A DNA stretch of 64,000 nt from Aquimarina sp. BL5 (GTDB lineage Bacteria; Bacteroidota; Bacteroidia; Flavobacteriales; Flavobacteriaceae): assembly GCF_003443675.1 (NCBI RefSeq), contig NZ_CP031963.1, positions 1,821,501-1,885,500 of the forward strand, written 5' to 3'. Position 1 is the first letter of the stretch; each line of letters opens with the position of its first letter. The translations under genes and the position numbers were made by a program. The notes beneath the pieces are model-generated. The model did no database searches. It saw only the letters and a list, made by a program, of their open reading frames with translations, and had not been told where the DNA came from. Shown here in pieces: positions 56,047 to 62,482 of the stretch.

Positions 56047-56979
56047 TTATTTTACCGCAACCAATTCTACGTCAAAAATCAAAGTAGCATTTGGTGGGAT
56101 TACTCCTCCAGCACCGTTTGCTCCATATCCTAAAGATGGTGGAATTACGAAACGCGCCTTATCGCCCACTTGTAATAAAGCAATACCTTCATCCCATCCT
56201 GGAATTACTTGCCCCATTCCTAACGGAAAATCGATGGGTTGATTACGCTTATAAGAAGAGTCAAAAACAGTTCCATCTGTTAAGCTTCCCTTATAATGAA
56301 CAGAAACAGTTTTTCCTTTTTCTGCTAGCGCGCCATCACCTTTTTGAATTATTTTATAATGCAAACCGCTATCCGTTTTATCAAACCCAGCTGCCAATTC
56401 TTCTAACTGTTGTTCTGCCTCTTTTTTTGCTGCAGCTTCTCTCTCTGCTTTAGCTCCATTAAACTGTCTAAAAGTCTCCACTGCATTAAAACTCTCTGCA
56501 TCAGCTCCTACTCTAACAATTTCCAAAGATTCTATAACATCTCCTTGTGCTACCGAATTGACTACATCCTGTCCTTCTAACACTTTACCAAAAACAGTAT
56601 GCTTACCATCTAACCAAGCAGTTTCTACGTGAGTAATAAAAAACTGACTTCCGTTAGTTCCCGGTCCTGCATTTGCCATAGATAATACTCCTGGTCCATC
56701 ATGTTTAAGATCTGGATGAATCTCATCATCAAATTGATATCCTGGCCCACCAGCTCCTGAACCTTGAGGATCTCCTCCCTGAATCATAAAATCAGGAATA
56801 ACTCTATGAAATTTTAATCCATTATAATAAGGTTTCCCTTGAGGAATAGCCTGGTTTTCCATATTTCCTTCTGCTAAACCTACAAAGTTTCCAACTGTTC
56901 CCGGAGTTTTTTTATACTCTAGATTTACCAGAATACTTCCTTTTGTTGTATTAAATTTTGCGTATAATCCGTCTTGCAT
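56047..56979 (-). CDS. Peptidylprolyl isomerase, cyclophilin-FKBP fusion
   Basis: 310-residue double PPIase. Residues ~1-170 are a cyclophilin ([50 protein letters not shown]); a Glu/Ala-rich helical linker (~170-200) leads to an FKBP domain (~205-310: [48 protein letters not shown]). The active-site residues of both are kept. No signal peptide, so it acts in the cytoplasm as a folding factor. The fusion is uncommon outside Bacteroidota. Monocistronic with its own terminator. Confidence 0.95.
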
Positions 56980-57339: not shown

Positions 57340-58137
57340 TTAATCAATTTTCTCTAATAACTCTTGCGCTTCTTTGTATTTATAATTGGCTTTATCTACT
57401 ATAATTGTTTGTAATACATCTTTGAGTTTGCGCTTCTTCTTTTGTTTTAAAAACACTAAAGCTTTATACCAATTAGCTTTTTTAGCCTGTAAAGTATTAG
57501 AATCAGCTAAAAGTTTAAACTGTGCTAGGGCTTCGTCAAATTTATTGAGTTCTATATTAGAGATCCCGTTGTATATATAACTTAGCGGATCTATAGAAAT
57601 TTCTTTTGTATGATATGCGGCGAAAGCCTCGGTTGCTTCCTGATACTTCTTATCTTCGAATAGCAATTGCGCATTCTCTAACAATTTATTCGTATCCTCG
57701 CCTCTGGTTACTAATGACGGGATCTCATCCACATGTACATAGGAAGCATACAATTCATCATAATTATTTTCTTTAAAAACAAATAAAGAGACCGTAATCA
57801 GTACAGCAATGGATGCAGCAATACCAATAAACCAAAATGTTTTACTCTGTGAACTGGATCTGTTCTCTGCGATTACATCATTAATAGTAGATTTTAAATT
57901 AACTGCTTCATCACTTTCATAAAAAGATTTCAGTTGTGTAGCTTCTTCCGTTTGTAATGCTTCTGTATCACCGTGTAACCATTCTTGATCTTCATAAATG
58001 GTTAGCATATCTTTTTGCAACTTTAGTTCTTCCGCAAGTAGCGGATCTTTTACTAGTCTTTCTTCGAATGCTTGCTTTTCTGATGTGGACATTGTACCAC
58101 TCAGATAATCATCAATTTCTATTGGGTAGTCCTTCAT
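57340..58137 (-). CDS. Membrane-anchored TPR protein, candidate anti-sigma factor
   Basis: 265 residues with three parts: a cytoplasmic N-terminal region (1-100) that opens with IEIDDYLSGTMSTSEKQAFEERL, resembling the start of Bacteroidota anti-sigma-like proteins and of the ECF-associated TPR family; one membrane helix (101-121, FWFIGIAASIAVLITVSLFV); and a periplasmic domain (~130-265) of TPR-like helices (KLLENAQLLFEDKKYQEATEAF, LNKFDEALAQFKLL). Its ATG overlaps the stop region of the sigma factor gene by 4 nt, so sigma and membrane protein are coupled, the usual sign of a sigma/anti-sigma pair. No zinc-binding anti-sigma (ZAS) motif is present. The inhibitory role is inferred. Confidence 0.75.
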   Translation of the reverse strand: MKDYPIEIDDYLSGTMSTSEKQAFEERLVKDPLLAEELKLQKDMLTIYEDQEWLHGDTEALQTEEATQLKSFYESDEAVNLKSTINDVIAENRSSSQSKTFWFIGIAASIAVLITVSLFVFKENNYDELYASYVHVDEIPSLVTRGEDTNKLLENAQLLFEDKKYQEATEAFAAYHTKEISIDPLSYIYNGISNIELNKFDEALAQFKLLADSNTLQAKKANWYKALVFLKQKKKRKLKDVLQTIIVDKANYKYKEAQELLEKID

Positions 58138-58748
58138 AATTCTTTTATTTGATTATATCGGGTATCGCTTTTTATCAATTTAGTTAATTGTGATTTACAA
58201 TTAAAAATACGTTGTCTCACTACATTATCTGTATTATATCCTAGTTTTTCCATGATATCTTTATAAGGTACTTTCTGAAAAAACAATTGTAATAATTGCT
58301 TACAATTATCAGACAGTTCGGTTAATTTCTCTTGAAACAGCTCCCACTTTTCTTGTTCTAAAGTTGCCATGGTCATGTCTTCTGCTTCTTTAGAGTGTTC
58401 CATAACCTCATCATTTGTTACTATCCTTTTTTGTTTATTTAGCTCTCTACGCCATAAATTTCTACAAACTATATAGAAATAAGCACTAAAAGAGCTTTCT
58501 ATCACAAAGGGTTTTACCTTATATCTGGCGATTAATTGCATCAACGCTTTCTGAAAAACATCCTCTGCATCTGCAATATCTCCATTATTAGCAAGGACAA
58601 AACTTCTTATTTTAGGAAACTCTTTTCTATAGAGGTCTTGTATAAGCTTCGTATCCCCCGTAACAAGCTGTTTAAGTTGATCTTTTTCAGTTATCTGCAT
58701 TAAGATATCTTTAACTATTTGATTTTTTTTACTTTTGCGTGGTAACAT
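58134..58748 (-). CDS. ECF-type sigma-70 family RNA polymerase sigma factor
   Basis: 204-residue group 4 sigma factor. Region 2 is seen at DAEDVFQKALMQLIARYKVKPF and FSAYFYIVCRNLWRRELNKQK (the -10 recognition/melting helices), and region 4 at LSDNCKQLLQLFFQKVPYKDIMEKLGY with NVVRQRIFNCKSQLTKLI as the recognition helix. Start is ATG 58748; a second Met at 58700 (MQITEKDQ) is possible. Its stop overlaps the following TPR-membrane protein. Divergent, with a 54-nt gap, from the lipoprotein/CHAT operon; it may control that operon. Confidence 0.9.
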   Translation of the reverse strand: MLPRKSKKNQIVKDILMQITEKDQLKQLVTGDTKLIQDLYRKEFPKIRSFVLANNGDIADAEDVFQKALMQLIARYKVKPFVIESSFSAYFYIVCRNLWRRELNKQKRIVTNDEVMEHSKEAEDMTMATLEQEKWELFQEKLTELSDNCKQLLQLFFQKVPYKDIMEKLGYNTDNVVRQRIFNCKSQLTKLIKSDTRYNQIKEL

Positions 58749-58802
58749 TTATTAGGTTAGGGAAACATACTAATAAATATATAAACAAAAAAAGATTTAA
58801 GA

Positions 58803-59300
58803 ATGAAAAAAATCACACTACTATTAGTAGCCGCAGTCTTTGCTATTGGAATACAAAGCTGTTCGACAGATGAAATCGGAATTGAAGAGGAAGCATTACA
58901 GGAAAATCCGGAAATGAAATTCAATAATATGATAGAAGGTCCAACTTCCTATTGTGATCTATTTGTAATGTATCCAAGTACTATGAGCTCTTATGATCGA
59001 GATGTATTTAGATTTCAACATATTAATACTACAGAATCGTTTGGAAATTTCACTTATGTTACTACTGAATGTTCAGACATAGAAATCTGGAACGTAGATT
59101 GTTCTAAAATTCCCACACAATATAATGGTAACAGTGTCGAAGGTTCTACTGCTGTTTATCAAGGTAAGAACCCCGAAGATTCAGCAGTGGACGATGATGA
59201 TAATTCACCTATTGATAGCTCGAATCCTTCTAATTATATTTATTTAGAAGGTAATATTATGGATTGTAATACTATTTTACAACTAATCAATCATCAATAA
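58803..59300 (+). CDS. Hypothetical lipoprotein of the CHAT operon
   Basis: 165 residues, lipobox IGIQSC (Cys 20) followed by STDEIG, whose acidic pair resembles flavobacterial surface-export signals. The mature part has four further Cys (YCDLF, TECSD, VDCSK, MDCNT) that could form two disulphides, and an acidic insert (DDDDNSP). I do not recognise a family. It is 17 nt before the CHAT gene and begins 54 nt from the divergent sigma factor, so it is likely the first gene of that transcript and could be a sensor or a substrate of the protease (inference). Confidence 0.7.
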   Translation: MKKITLLLVAAVFAIGIQSCSTDEIGIEEEALQENPEMKFNNMIEGPTSYCDLFVMYPSTMSSYDRDVFRFQHINTTESFGNFTYVTTECSDIEIWNVDCSKIPTQYNGNSVEGSTAVYQGKNPEDSAVDDDDNSPIDSSNPSNYIYLEGNIMDCNTILQLINHQ

Positions 59301-59317
59301 AATTATAATTTAATTAA

Positions 59318-62029
59318 TTGAAAAAGTATATCCTCTTTTTATTTTATATCCTGGCGATGAATGTTCATTGTCAGGATATTTCTTTTGCTTTAGACTCTAT
59401 TCATAAAAGCCCGGGTACAGATCACAGTAAACTTAAAGTATATTATGAACTTTTAAATTTCTACAAGGAACAAAAAAACTATACACAATTGGGCTATGAC
59501 GCACATTTATTGGCTAAATGGATATTAAGAGAAAACGATAGACCACTAGCTGTTAAAATTGTTAAGATGGCATATGAAGCCAGAGAAAAAGCAGACCCAT
59601 ATGATCCAGAGTTATTAAAAAGAAGTTATTTTAACTATGCAAATTACAATAGAACCTTAGGAAATTTAGAAATTGCCATAAAATATTTTAAAAAAGTTAT
59701 AGAAGTGAGTACAACCGACTTTCTTAAAGGACGAACTTATATACTAATTGGAAGATGTTATGAAAGCTTAGAAGACTTATATAAATCAATAGAATTTCAA
59801 AACAAGGCTTTTCAGTATTTAAAAAACAAAAAATATATTATAGAAAACCACATACATATAGGTATAACTTATACTAATATTCGAAATAAAATTAGCAATA
59901 AAAAGGCAATTGATCATTTGTTAATTTCTGACTCATTATTGCTAAAAAGTAAAAAACAGTATCCTTTTAAACGTTATCAGGTGTATAATCGGTTAGCAAA
60001 TCTATATCAAAAAGGAGCAGGAACTGTTGATATAAAAAAAGGATTTGATTATTACAATAAAGCACTAACATTGGTTATCAATAATGATTATACAATCGAA
60101 TTACCTCACATAAATTATAACATAGGCGTTTCTTATATAGAAATAGACTCCGTGCTTTCTAGACATCATCTTAATCAAGCGTTATTACATACCACAAAAG
60201 ATGATCCCTTTTTACCCATTATATATGCTGGATTTGGATATGATGCTAAGCAAAATAAAGAGTACTATGAGGCACAAGAATATTTCCGGAAATCCTTTTC
60301 CTTATTTTTTAACACAAAAACCCCAGATATCTATTGGTTACCTAAGACAAAACATATGAAGGTTTTAGATGACAAAGCCTATTTCTTAGAATTATTAAAA
60401 AGAAAAATGCATACGTGGATATTAATGGGAAAAAGAGAGGATAGTTTAAAATATTATCAACAAGCTATTCTTACTGCATATACCTGTAATGCCCTAATAG
60501 ATTTTCTTTTAAAGGAAGATATTTCACAGGAATCAAAGTTATTCTGGAGAAGCTTAGCTTCCGAGATATACATTATAGCTTTAGATGCCTGTCACGCAAG
60601 TAATAATGTAAAGGATGCCTTTTATTTTATGGAAAAAAGCAAAGCTTTATTGTTAATGCAGGATTTAAATAAAATTAAAATAAATATACCAGATAGTATC
60701 ATAGGACAAGAATATTTTTTGAAAAATAAAATAATTAATCTTCAAAATGCGTTGATTGACACAAAAGAAAGTAAAAAAGATTCGATATCCTCACTTCTAT
60801 TAGATAGAAAAACAAAACTCCAAGCTTACAAAGATTCTCTTGCTCCTTTTTATCCAGAATATTTTACATCCACAGAACTTCCTGCTATTATCTCTTTAGA
60901 AGATGTTATATTATCAAATAATGAAATTGTTATTCAATACTCTATGGCAGAACGGGTATATGGTGTCGCGCCAGAAGCTTATGGAATGTTATTATCAAAG
61001 GACAAAAAAAAATTATTTAAAATAGATAGTCTTAAAACGTTTGAGAAAAACATTTATAAATTAAGACAACAATTAAATAGGCCTTTTAGTACCTCCAAAG
61101 AAATTGAAGAATATAAAAAGCTTTCTAATACTATATATAATTCTTTATTCCCGAAAGGAATTAGAAATTATATAAAAAATAAAAAGGTTACCATAATAGG
61201 AGATCATATTCTTAATTATTTCCCATTCGAAGCTCTAGTAACTGATATAGAAAAAAATCTCTATTTAATAGAAGAAACAGAGATTGATTATGACTTATCA
61301 CTTTCGTTTAAAAAACAAAATAACTCGTTTGTAAGAAAAACAAATAGAGATTTTCTCGGGATAGCACCGGTTGAATTCCCTGACAAACTAATTAGTTTAT
61401 CTAAAAGTTTAGAAGAAATCTCTTATGCTAATAGTTATTATGATGGAGAATTATTAAGTCTAGATAAAGCTACCAAAGAAAACTTTAAAAAAGAAATTTA
61501 TAAATACAAAATAGTACATTTAGCGACTCACGCGGATGCCTCTGATAGCTTGAATCCCTGGATTGCTTTTAGAGATAAAAAACTATATCACCTAGAATTA
61601 AACACCCTGAAAAACAATGCTGATTTAGTAGTACTCAGTGCTTGTAACACCTCATTAGGAGAAGTTCGTCGAGGAGAAGGCGTATTGAGCCTTGCCCGCG
61701 GATTTTTTAAATCCGGAGCCAAATCAGTGATTCCGTCATTATGGAGCACCAATGATAAAGCAACCGCCACGATCACTTCTGATTTTTATAAAAACCTTAG
61801 CGAAGGACAAACCAAATCTGCAGCTTTACGAACCGCAAAGCTTAACTATCTACACAACAATACCGATGCAGAGGCTTCTCCTCATTATTGGGCATCGTTA
61901 GTCCTAATCGGTGATAGTGGGACTTTGTTACCACAATCTAATAATTTGTTGTTTTTGTGGATTGGGTTGGGGATCGTTTTAGCTTTAGTTATTTTATATA
62001 AACTTTTCTTGAAAAAGAAAAAGCAATGA
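59318..62029 (+). CDS. TPR-CHAT domain protein (caspase-like), membrane-anchored
   Basis: 903 residues. The start is TTG 59318, which directly opens a good signal peptide (MKKYILFLFYILAMNVHC); no ATG serves better. Residues ~30-480 are TPR-like helices (FNYANYNRTLGNLEIAIKYF, IGRCYESLEDLYKSIEFQNK). The CHAT peptidase domain spans ~600-868 with the catalytic His in VHLATHADAS (His 738) and Cys in LSACNTSLGEVRRGEGVLSL (Cys 776), then AGAKSVIPSLWSTND-type ending (here SGAKSVIPSLWS). A membrane helix (876-896, LFLWIGLGIVLALVILY) and a basic tail KKKKQ end the protein, so CHAT is predicted to be outside the cytoplasm. CHAT proteins are caspase/separase relatives. Target unknown; the neighbouring sigma/anti-sigma pair is the obvious suspect. 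Confidence 0.9.
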   Translation: MKKYILFLFYILAMNVHCQDISFALDSIHKSPGTDHSKLKVYYELLNFYKEQKNYTQLGYDAHLLAKWILRENDRPLAVKIVKMAYEAREKADPYDPELLKRSYFNYANYNRTLGNLEIAIKYFKKVIEVSTTDFLKGRTYILIGRCYESLEDLYKSIEFQNKAFQYLKNKKYIIENHIHIGITYTNIRNKISNKKAIDHLLISDSLLLKSKKQYPFKRYQVYNRLANLYQKGAGTVDIKKGFDYYNKALTLVINNDYTIELPHINYNIGVSYIEIDSVLSRHHLNQALLHTTKDDPFLPIIYAGFGYDAKQNKEYYEAQEYFRKSFSLFFNTKTPDIYWLPKTKHMKVLDDKAYFLELLKRKMHTWILMGKREDSLKYYQQAILTAYTCNALIDFLLKEDISQESKLFWRSLASEIYIIALDACHASNNVKDAFYFMEKSKALLLMQDLNKIKINIPDSIIGQEYFLKNKIINLQNALIDTKESKKDSISSLLLDRKTKLQAYKDSLAPFYPEYFTSTELPAIISLEDVILSNNEIVIQYSMAERVYGVAPEAYGMLLSKDKKKLFKIDSLKTFEKNIYKLRQQLNRPFSTSKEIEEYKKLSNTIYNSLFPKGIRNYIKNKKVTIIGDHILNYFPFEALVTDIEKNLYLIEETEIDYDLSLSFKKQNNSFVRKTNRDFLGIAPVEFPDKLISLSKSLEEISYANSYYDGELLSLDKATKENFKKEIYKYKIVHLATHADASDSLNPWIAFRDKKLYHLELNTLKNNADLVVLSACNTSLGEVRRGEGVLSLARGFFKSGAKSVIPSLWSTNDKATATITSDFYKNLSEGQTKSAALRTAKLNYLHNNTDAEASPHYWASLVLIGDSGTLLPQSNNLLFLWIGLGIVLALVILYKLFLKKKKQ

Positions 62030-62266: not shown

Positions 62267-62482
62267 ATGAAGAAAAAAAAGTTCGATGGGTTATCCCTAA
62301 ACAAAAATGTGATCTCTAAGCTTAATGGTCTAAGTATCAAAGGAGGTACTTTGATGTCTGCGCAGGACTGTCCAACAGGGGCTTTTAATTGCCCTACAGA
62401 TGATGGACTTATATCAGCCGGTTGCCAAGTTATTAGTAACGAATGTCCCGAAACGGTTATAAGATGCCTACCTAAAGAATAA
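62267..62482 (+). CDS. Small Cys-rich peptide with Gly-Gly leader, RiPP precursor-like
   Basis: 71 residues. The first 27 read like the leaders of Bacteroidota double-glycine RiPP/lanthipeptide precursors: a Lys run, then LSLNKNVISKLNGLSIKGG with the GG at 26-27. The remaining 44 residues have five Cys (35, 42, 53, 60, 67), four of the spacings being 7, 11, 7 and 7 residues, plus seven Ser/Thr, which would suit thioether or disulphide cross-linking. No modification enzyme or exporter is within the window on either side of it as far as 64000. It is followed by a strong terminator and separated by 237 nt from the CHAT gene. Whether it is processed is unproven. Confidence 0.65.
   Translation: MKKKKFDGLSLNKNVISKLNGLSIKGGTLMSAQDCPTGAFNCPTDDGLISAGCQVISNECPETVIRCLPKE

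Follow-up and report, generated by a model that had tools for sequence, protein, structure and literature searches.

A membrane-anchored TPR-CHAT protein as the probable site-1 protease of a neighbouring anti-sigma candidate in Aquimarina sp. BL5

The DNA considered here, hereafter the window, is a stretch of 64,000 nucleotides from the genome of Aquimarina sp. BL5, a member of the Flavobacteriaceae (contig NZ_CP031963.1, positions 1,821,501 to 1,885,500 of the forward strand), in which the genes for an extracytoplasmic function (ECF) sigma factor and a single-helix membrane protein, the anti-sigma candidate, are divergent from those for a lipoprotein and a TPR-CHAT protease (Table 1). Judged from sequence, these genes very probably make up a module for envelope signalling, with the membrane-anchored TPR-CHAT protein acting as the site-1 protease dedicated to the anti-sigma encoded beside it. 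There is strong sequence evidence that the anti-sigma is the CHAT substrate and that Arg145, in the linker between its membrane helix and its TPR domain, is the P1 residue, both being marked by the co-variation of position 145 with CHAT positions 700, 774 and 813. An earlier note on this DNA had proposed that CHAT could cut the outer TPR part of the anti-sigma and thereby release sigma; both TPR arrays might serve as docking surfaces. Linker-pocket co-variation, gene linkage and topology favour such a cut, and the predicted site is narrowed to the coil that precedes the first TPR helix, after residue 145.

Co-variation of a linker residue with the predicted CHAT pocket

The comparison is based on 149 distinct anti-sigmas from 209 loci, which were retrieved around CHAT or anti-sigma matches. 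Position 145, which lies some 19-35 residues past the membrane helix in an otherwise variable linker, is Arg in 130 of these proteins; the others have Lys (10), Gln (8) or Met (1). The residue after it (P1′) is Gly, Ser or Asn in 136/149. Pairing of each anti-sigma with the nearest CHAT gave 137 pairs; the 12 unpaired proteins comprise 9 without a called CHAT open reading frame (ORF) and 3 whose nearest CHAT was a duplicate or fell outside the length and score filter. The residues at CHAT 700, 774 and 813 are Glu, Ser and Asp (E/S/D) or Glu, Thr and Asp (E/T/D) in all 118 Arg pairs, and Lys, Asp and Glu in all 8 Gln pairs. Position 813 is Glu, Ala or Leu in 9/10 Lys pairs and Glu in the Met pair.

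Among 71,020 inter-protein column pairs, 145-813 has the highest normalised mutual information, and 145-700 and 145-774 rank second and third after average product correction (APC). The pair 145-813 still ranks first when the Gln clade is left out and when the Lys and Met pairs are left out (there level with 145-700), and a single random re-pairing lowers it to rank 58,402. In a tree of 145 CHAT domains, from which the three pocket columns were excluded, Arg/non-Arg changes at 145 fall on 6 branches and Asp/non-Asp changes at 813 on 5, all 5 of which coincide with changes at 145; this coincidence was reproduced by 0 of 20,000 length-weighted random placements. Position 813 is also first of 256 columns in branch co-change (Jaccard 0.83, next 0.20). 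With every residue counted as a separate state, the independent-pair test described below gives minimum numbers of changes of 8 at 145, 7 at 813, 4 at 700 and 3 at 774. The Lys of one anti-sigma (L251), for which the alignment is one position off, was set by hand in both tree tests.

The correspondence also holds within single genomes. Six Aquimarina genomes contribute an anti-sigma of the Lys or Gln type to the set. Each has 5-8 counted CHATs, only one of which deviates from the E/S/D and E/T/D pockets, and this one is the neighbour of that anti-sigma (6/6). The branch-placement and within-genome tests speak against shared ancestry as the only cause of the co-variation, although the Gln type forms a single clade. 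Among 16 loci retrieved later, 8 hold a CHAT, and these comprise seven Arg pairs, all with Asp813, and one Lys pair with Glu813; the CHAT of one of the Arg pairs (L263) has Ser700, is without a predicted membrane helix and may not be the true partner. As far as these alignments go, protease and substrate seem to have changed specificity together.

The three CHAT positions fit the S1 pocket of clan CD by their place in the sequence, to which they would correspond. S1 specificity in this clan has been assigned to the alpha1/L1, L4 and L5 regions, and in caspase-7, with the dyad His144/Cys186, to Arg87, Gln184 and Arg233 (PMC4357240). CHAT 774 is two residues before the catalytic Cys, like Gln184 of caspase-7, and positions 813 (Cys plus 37) and 700 (His minus 38) lie on the sides on which caspase-7 has Arg233 and Arg87.

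Co-variation suggests contact between linker and pocket, not cleavage of a bond, which suits an alternative in which the linker sits in the CHAT active site as a pseudosubstrate and keeps the protease inactive, the real substrate being another envelope protein. This alternative appears quite improbable. The catalytic dyad is invariant in 205/205 distinct CHATs (750-1300 aa, at least 300 bits), and the site in the linker retains a pocket-suited residue and a small P1′. A similar motif occurs in 1/135 ORFs just upstream of CHAT, a count by which the lipoprotein was also rejected as a second substrate. Moreover, the sigma gene is immediately upstream of 148/149 distinct anti-sigmas, so that the anti-sigma's own fate is likely to be the output.

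Topology and gene linkage

Cleavage of the anti-sigma by CHAT is consistent with the predicted topology of the two proteins. The earlier note had described a CHAT protein with an intact His738/Cys776 dyad, a signal peptide and a C-terminal membrane helix; the dyad is confirmed, together with an N-terminal hydrophobic stretch and a helix at 876-894 (CHAT profile 176.3 bits, cut-off 24). An N-terminal hydrophobic stretch was found in 201/205 and a C-terminal helix in 187/205 CHATs of the above set; set A5 consists of 73 of 161 CHATs, hand-picked among 95 listed, and set A6 of all 37 chosen. One membrane helix is predicted in 141/149 anti-sigmas, and the flank preceding it is more positive than the following one in 134/146, which places the TPR part outside. 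By these predictions, made from hydropathy and charge, CHAT and the TPR part of the anti-sigma are on the same outer side of the membrane, and both would face the periplasm; placement on opposite sides, which the earlier note would have taken as refuting its proposal, is thus not what is predicted.

An AlphaFold2 model of the anti-sigma (mean predicted local distance difference test score, pLDDT, 87) consists of N-terminal helices, a membrane helix at 103-120, a coil at 139-150 and then TPR helices; the pLDDT across residues 141-150 is 84. The model shows helical repeats, and TPR_2 was matched by 63/93 relatives (E ≤ 0.01), which upholds the claim that the outer part is TPR-like; the window protein alone matches TPR_16 weakly (21.1 bits, cut-off 32.7). 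The set of 93 was drawn from 115 anti-sigmas of less than 70% identity, of which 95 were listed besides the window protein, and L168, L186 and L220, matches with stop codons, were dropped by hand.

The genome (6.01 Mb) contains ten CHAT genes, of which eight are within about 6 kb of a sigma gene and a one-helix TPR protein gene, with divergent, convergent or tandem order; at one locus (L045), two larger genes sit between CHAT and the sigma pair. The anti-sigma of L042 was missed by single-sequence search. It was assigned from the location of its gene and its one helix, and A2, the profile by which it was later detected, contains this sequence itself. Nine of the ten CHATs combine an N-terminal hydrophobic stretch (by eye) with the CHAT domain and a C-terminal helix that is followed by a basic tail, and TPRs were scanned for and found in two of these nine. 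No sigma pair was found alongside the ninth of them (L038, 7840-11091, plus strand), which keeps the dyad and the N-terminal hydrophobic stretch; its neighbours, named by eye, are exonuclease III-like, OmpA-like and ABC ATPase-like genes. The tenth CHAT (L046, 9016-14319, minus strand; 1767 residues) is of a different kind, without a predicted membrane helix, and CHAT matches in open frames of about the same length occur in G005, G006 and G016. Three sigma genes of the same kind (L047, L048 and L049) had no anti-sigma or CHAT in the surrounding 20 kb by single-sequence search.

The linkage is conserved beyond this genome. In 36 genomes (the source genome, 20 others of the genus and 15 of the order), 99/144 CHAT matches, fragments being counted, are at most 8 kb from an anti-sigma match, with 2.6 expected by chance, and 93/101 anti-sigma matches (the best 101, E < 1e-15) are near a CHAT, a count favoured by a profile that was built from linked members. 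In 199 genomes from 198 genera of the family, the rows of the source genome being left out, 120/141 listed CHAT matches are within 10 kb of an anti-sigma match (1.9 expected, with genomes taken as 4 Mb), and 119/138 anti-sigma places are linked to a CHAT within the same distance. Chance neighbourhood was rejected on these counts, which also run against the other outcome that the earlier note had named as refuting, sigma pair and CHAT apart in most genomes. From the 80 best of 568 loci found, 79 CHAT loci of named organisms were compared; the sigma and anti-sigma genes are both present in 52 of these, among them loci of Tenacibaculum, Maribacter and Saprospiraceae.

Several observations weigh against a dedicated protease-substrate pair. 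Some concern linkage: in the 36 genomes, no anti-sigma lies within 8 kb of 45/144 CHAT matches, a count that takes in fragments; none is seen at 27/79 CHAT loci of named organisms, some of which are on short contigs; and Arg at 145 is retained by all 9 of the 149 anti-sigmas whose locus has no called CHAT ORF. One of these nine (L117) was itself retrieved through its own CHAT match, the match of L168 bears a stop codon, and a 74-residue CHAT remnant adjoins the sigma/anti-sigma pair of L214 (8308-8532, minus strand), which suggests recent loss of CHAT. No CHAT ORF was seen in the 12.8 kb of the remaining 8 of the 16 loci retrieved later; 6 of them have Arg at 145, and L262 and L265 have no basic residue aligned there. 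Others concern the co-variation: one Lys pair (L100) retains Asp813, and by APC-corrected, unnormalised mutual information 145-813 is outside the top 15, with the gap-rich CHAT column 686 in the lead. Independent co-change events are few, and an independent-pair test on supported branches had no power, with 3 usable pairs (2 agree, 0 disagree, 1 shows no difference). The S1 assignment relies on sequence positions. Finally, the anti-sigma role of the N-terminal part leans on weak profile matches to the NCBI anti-sigma model NF052375, which was matched by 38/93 relatives at E ≤ 0.01 and by the window protein with 15 bits (cut-off 100).

A broader generalisation, tentative and somewhat less probable than its negation, is that the module represents a Bacteroidota-wide class in which each anti-sigma would have a separase-like CHAT as a site-1 protease of its own, parallel modules would be partly insulated from each other by joint recoding of P1 and S1, and a co-encoded lipoprotein or GG-leader peptide would be the signal that is read.

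Gene layout, candidate signals and proposed mechanism

The features of the module are listed in Table 1. Rechecking of ORF coordinates confirmed the four ORFs and the 4-nucleotide overlap of the sigma and membrane-protein genes (58134-58137) that the earlier note had reported. The sigma factor matches TIGR02937 (65.5 bits, cut-off 42.9; residues 36-190 spanned) and Sigma70_r2 (PF04542; 30.4 bits, cut-off 24), and its listed matches contain no Pfam region 4 model. A divergent gap of 54 nucleotides is obtained with the longest sigma ORF; most paralogues, however, begin about 15 codons inside that ORF, and the gap between sigma and the CHAT operon is 99-107 nucleotides in five relatives, so that the real intergenic gap is probably about 105 nucleotides. 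The lipoprotein contains 5 Cys including the presumed lipobox Cys, so that "Cys-rich", as the earlier note has it, applies only mildly. Elsewhere in the window, a single ORF (56047-56979, minus strand) fuses cyclophilin-type and FKBP-type prolyl isomerases.

Table 1. Positions of the module's features in the window
Feature	Position	Strand	Remarks
Anti-sigma candidate, 265 aa	57340..58137	-	Cytoplasmic N-terminal helices, one membrane helix, outer linker, TPR domain
Arg145 codon, predicted P1 (SLVT-R|GED)	57703..57705	-	Conserved; coil 139-150 of model; co-varies with CHAT 813, 700, 774
Anti-sigma membrane helix, residues 103-121	57775..57831	-	Prediction and AlphaFold2 model
ECF-type sigma factor	58134..58748	-	TIGR02937 and PF04542 above cut-off; true start probably near 58700
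GGTAACA, candidate -35 element of CHAT operon	58741..58747	+	Lead only
Lipoprotein of CHAT operon, possible sensor or ligand	58803..59300	+	
TPR-CHAT protease	59318..62029	+	Signal peptide, TPRs, CHAT 601-866, C-terminal membrane helix 876-894, basic tail
Glu700, predicted S1 pocket (alpha1 region)	61415..61417	+	Glu in 118/118 Arg-type partners; Lys in 8/8 Gln-type
Catalytic His738	61529..61531	+	His in 205/205 distinct CHATs
Ser774 (Cys minus 2), predicted S1 pocket (L4)	61637..61639	+	Arg-type: Ser 116, Thr 2 (n=118); Gln-type: Asp 8/8
Catalytic Cys776	61643..61645	+	Cys in 205/205 distinct CHATs
Asp813, predicted S1 pocket (L5)	61754..61756	+	Arg-type: Asp 118/118; Gln-type: Glu 8/8; Lys-type: Asp 1/10
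Short Cys-containing peptide precursor, lanthipeptide-type GG leader	62267..62482	+	Downstream of CHAT; NF038153 23.6 bits (cut-off 22)

Enrichment ahead of CHAT operons was seen for the motif GGTAAC or GGGTAACA, which may be an ECF -35 element. It was found upstream of the gene before CHAT in 28/140 cases, sigma in 20/152, CHAT itself in 8/215, anti-sigma in 0/140 and other genes in 94/2195, and in 92 divergent gaps, many from related loci, GGTAAC is oriented toward the CHAT operon in 46 and toward the sigma operon in 13. Within the window, GGTAACA is not special, with 8 matches against 5.5 expected. GGTAAC may be the sigma's own promoter element. This orientation, together with the divergent layout of 72/99 linked places in the 36 genomes, would also be in keeping with a single regulon without contact between the two proteins, in which the CHAT operon would be under the control of sigma and the targets of CHAT would be proteins of the cell surface. 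Such a regulon, which does not predict the matched changes at 145 and 700/774/813 or the within-genome match of cognate partners, is highly improbable.

Candidates for the signal are the further ORF between sigma and CHAT, which is present in 72/97 divergent loci, and, in the clade of the window, the GG-leader peptide. A pattern search of the 209 loci, themselves retrieved around CHAT or anti-sigma matches, for class I lanthipeptide-type GG-leader peptides gave 13 distinct sequences. Every one of the 13 has a CHAT gene no more than 2 kb away, and 12 lie downstream of CHAT on the same strand; the peptide of L202 is on the other strand, and, besides the window and L202, such peptides occur in L051, L052, L053, L055, L148, L177, L195, L210 and L223. 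The GG-leader peptide may be a signal, a product or a substrate.

In the proposed mechanism, the cytoplasmic part of the anti-sigma would bind sigma in the resting state. CHAT would then be activated by a signal at the outer face of the inner membrane, perhaps through the CHAT TPRs, the lipoprotein or a secreted peptide, and CHAT would cleave the linker after Arg145 and so remove the TPR domain. The remaining stub would be degraded, probably by the one RseP-like site-2 protease of the genome, an M50 match of 166 bits (C1:3124267-3125502) of a family also present in 14/14 control genomes, and the freed sigma would direct transcription of the CHAT operon and of further genes.

Cell-surface signalling offers known examples of anti-sigmas in two parts. 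This precedent suits a variant of the mechanism in which CHAT always nicks the linker as a maturation step, the halves stay together and another protease answers the signal. Constitutive maturation nevertheless appears unlikely on two indirect grounds: CHAT has its own TPR region, and that of Csx29 gates the active site (PMC10028731), and the extra ORF mentioned above lies between sigma and CHAT in most divergent loci.

Comparison with known systems

To our knowledge, the targets of the large bacterial CHAT family are mostly unknown. If the proposed cleavage is true, this family gains a substrate outside CRISPR and a named cut site, TPR-CHAT control of a sigma-factor inhibitor operates outside CRISPR immunity, a caspase-like enzyme joins the proteases that start anti-sigma destruction, and the module is a natural example of a protease and a substrate that shift specificity jointly. 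A description of the module was not found in a literature search of titles and the starts of abstracts, with subscription papers and preprints mostly outside its coverage. What is new here is a conserved linker residue that co-varies with predicted CHAT pocket positions; cutting of a sigma inhibitor by a TPR-CHAT protease (type III-E) and the location of ECF54 near CHAT genes are already known.

In type III-E CRISPR, the TPR-CHAT protease Csx29 cuts the inhibitor of an ECF-like sigma factor and relieves inhibition; the cut in this inhibitor, Csx30, falls between residues 427 and 429, within a small loop of the C-terminal domain (PMC10028731). The two systems are alike in having a TPR-CHAT protease and an ECF sigma inhibitor that would work in the same way. 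They differ in that export and membrane anchoring are predicted for the CHAT here, and in that its inhibitor partner is a TPR protein of the membrane. A profile of the CHAT domain matched Csx29 chains in the PDB, for example 7y9x_B (E 0.0006), and other CHAT chains; the search was repeated with the domain alone because the full-length profile was swamped by TPR proteins. The place aligned to Asp813 is Ser in the CHAT chain 7x8a_D and Asp in the best match, 8rot_B. The RAMP family (PF03787) has no match in the genome, and the same search gives matches in 4/14 control genomes. A CRISPR origin was rejected on this result, which agrees with the earlier suggestion of a separate use of the same logic where CRISPR genes are absent. 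A known defence system was likewise rejected, as the PADLOC anti-phage defence models gave 0 matches at E ≤ 0.01 for the five proteins searched.

The module resembles DegS/RseA/RseP and other ECF cascades in its single-pass anti-sigma, which would be cut first outside the membrane and then probably within it, and in the one M50 match. In contrast to that system, the role of site-1 protease would here fall to a CHAT cysteine protease whose gene is close to that of its anti-sigma, and this genome has 8 parallel modules. Proteolytic control has been proposed for ECF54 because CHAT, subtilase and carboxypeptidase genes are nearby (PMC8999054); in the present case, the sigma gene adjoins that of an anti-sigma candidate, and a predicted cut site can be named.

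Separase and MALT1 are clan CD proteases with Arg at P1. In the C. elegans separase, Glu917 and Asp1082 have been modelled as holding the P1 Arg (PMC4626109), and the S1 residues of MALT1 are Asp365, Asp462 and Glu500 (PMC4357240). The window CHAT, with Glu700, Ser774 and Asp813, likewise has one Glu and one Asp, as in separase, but it is bacterial and predicted to be periplasmic, and it has natural Lys- and Gln-type variants. With natural Arg, Lys and Gln variants that have matching pockets, the proposed specificity can be tested by swapping a few residues.

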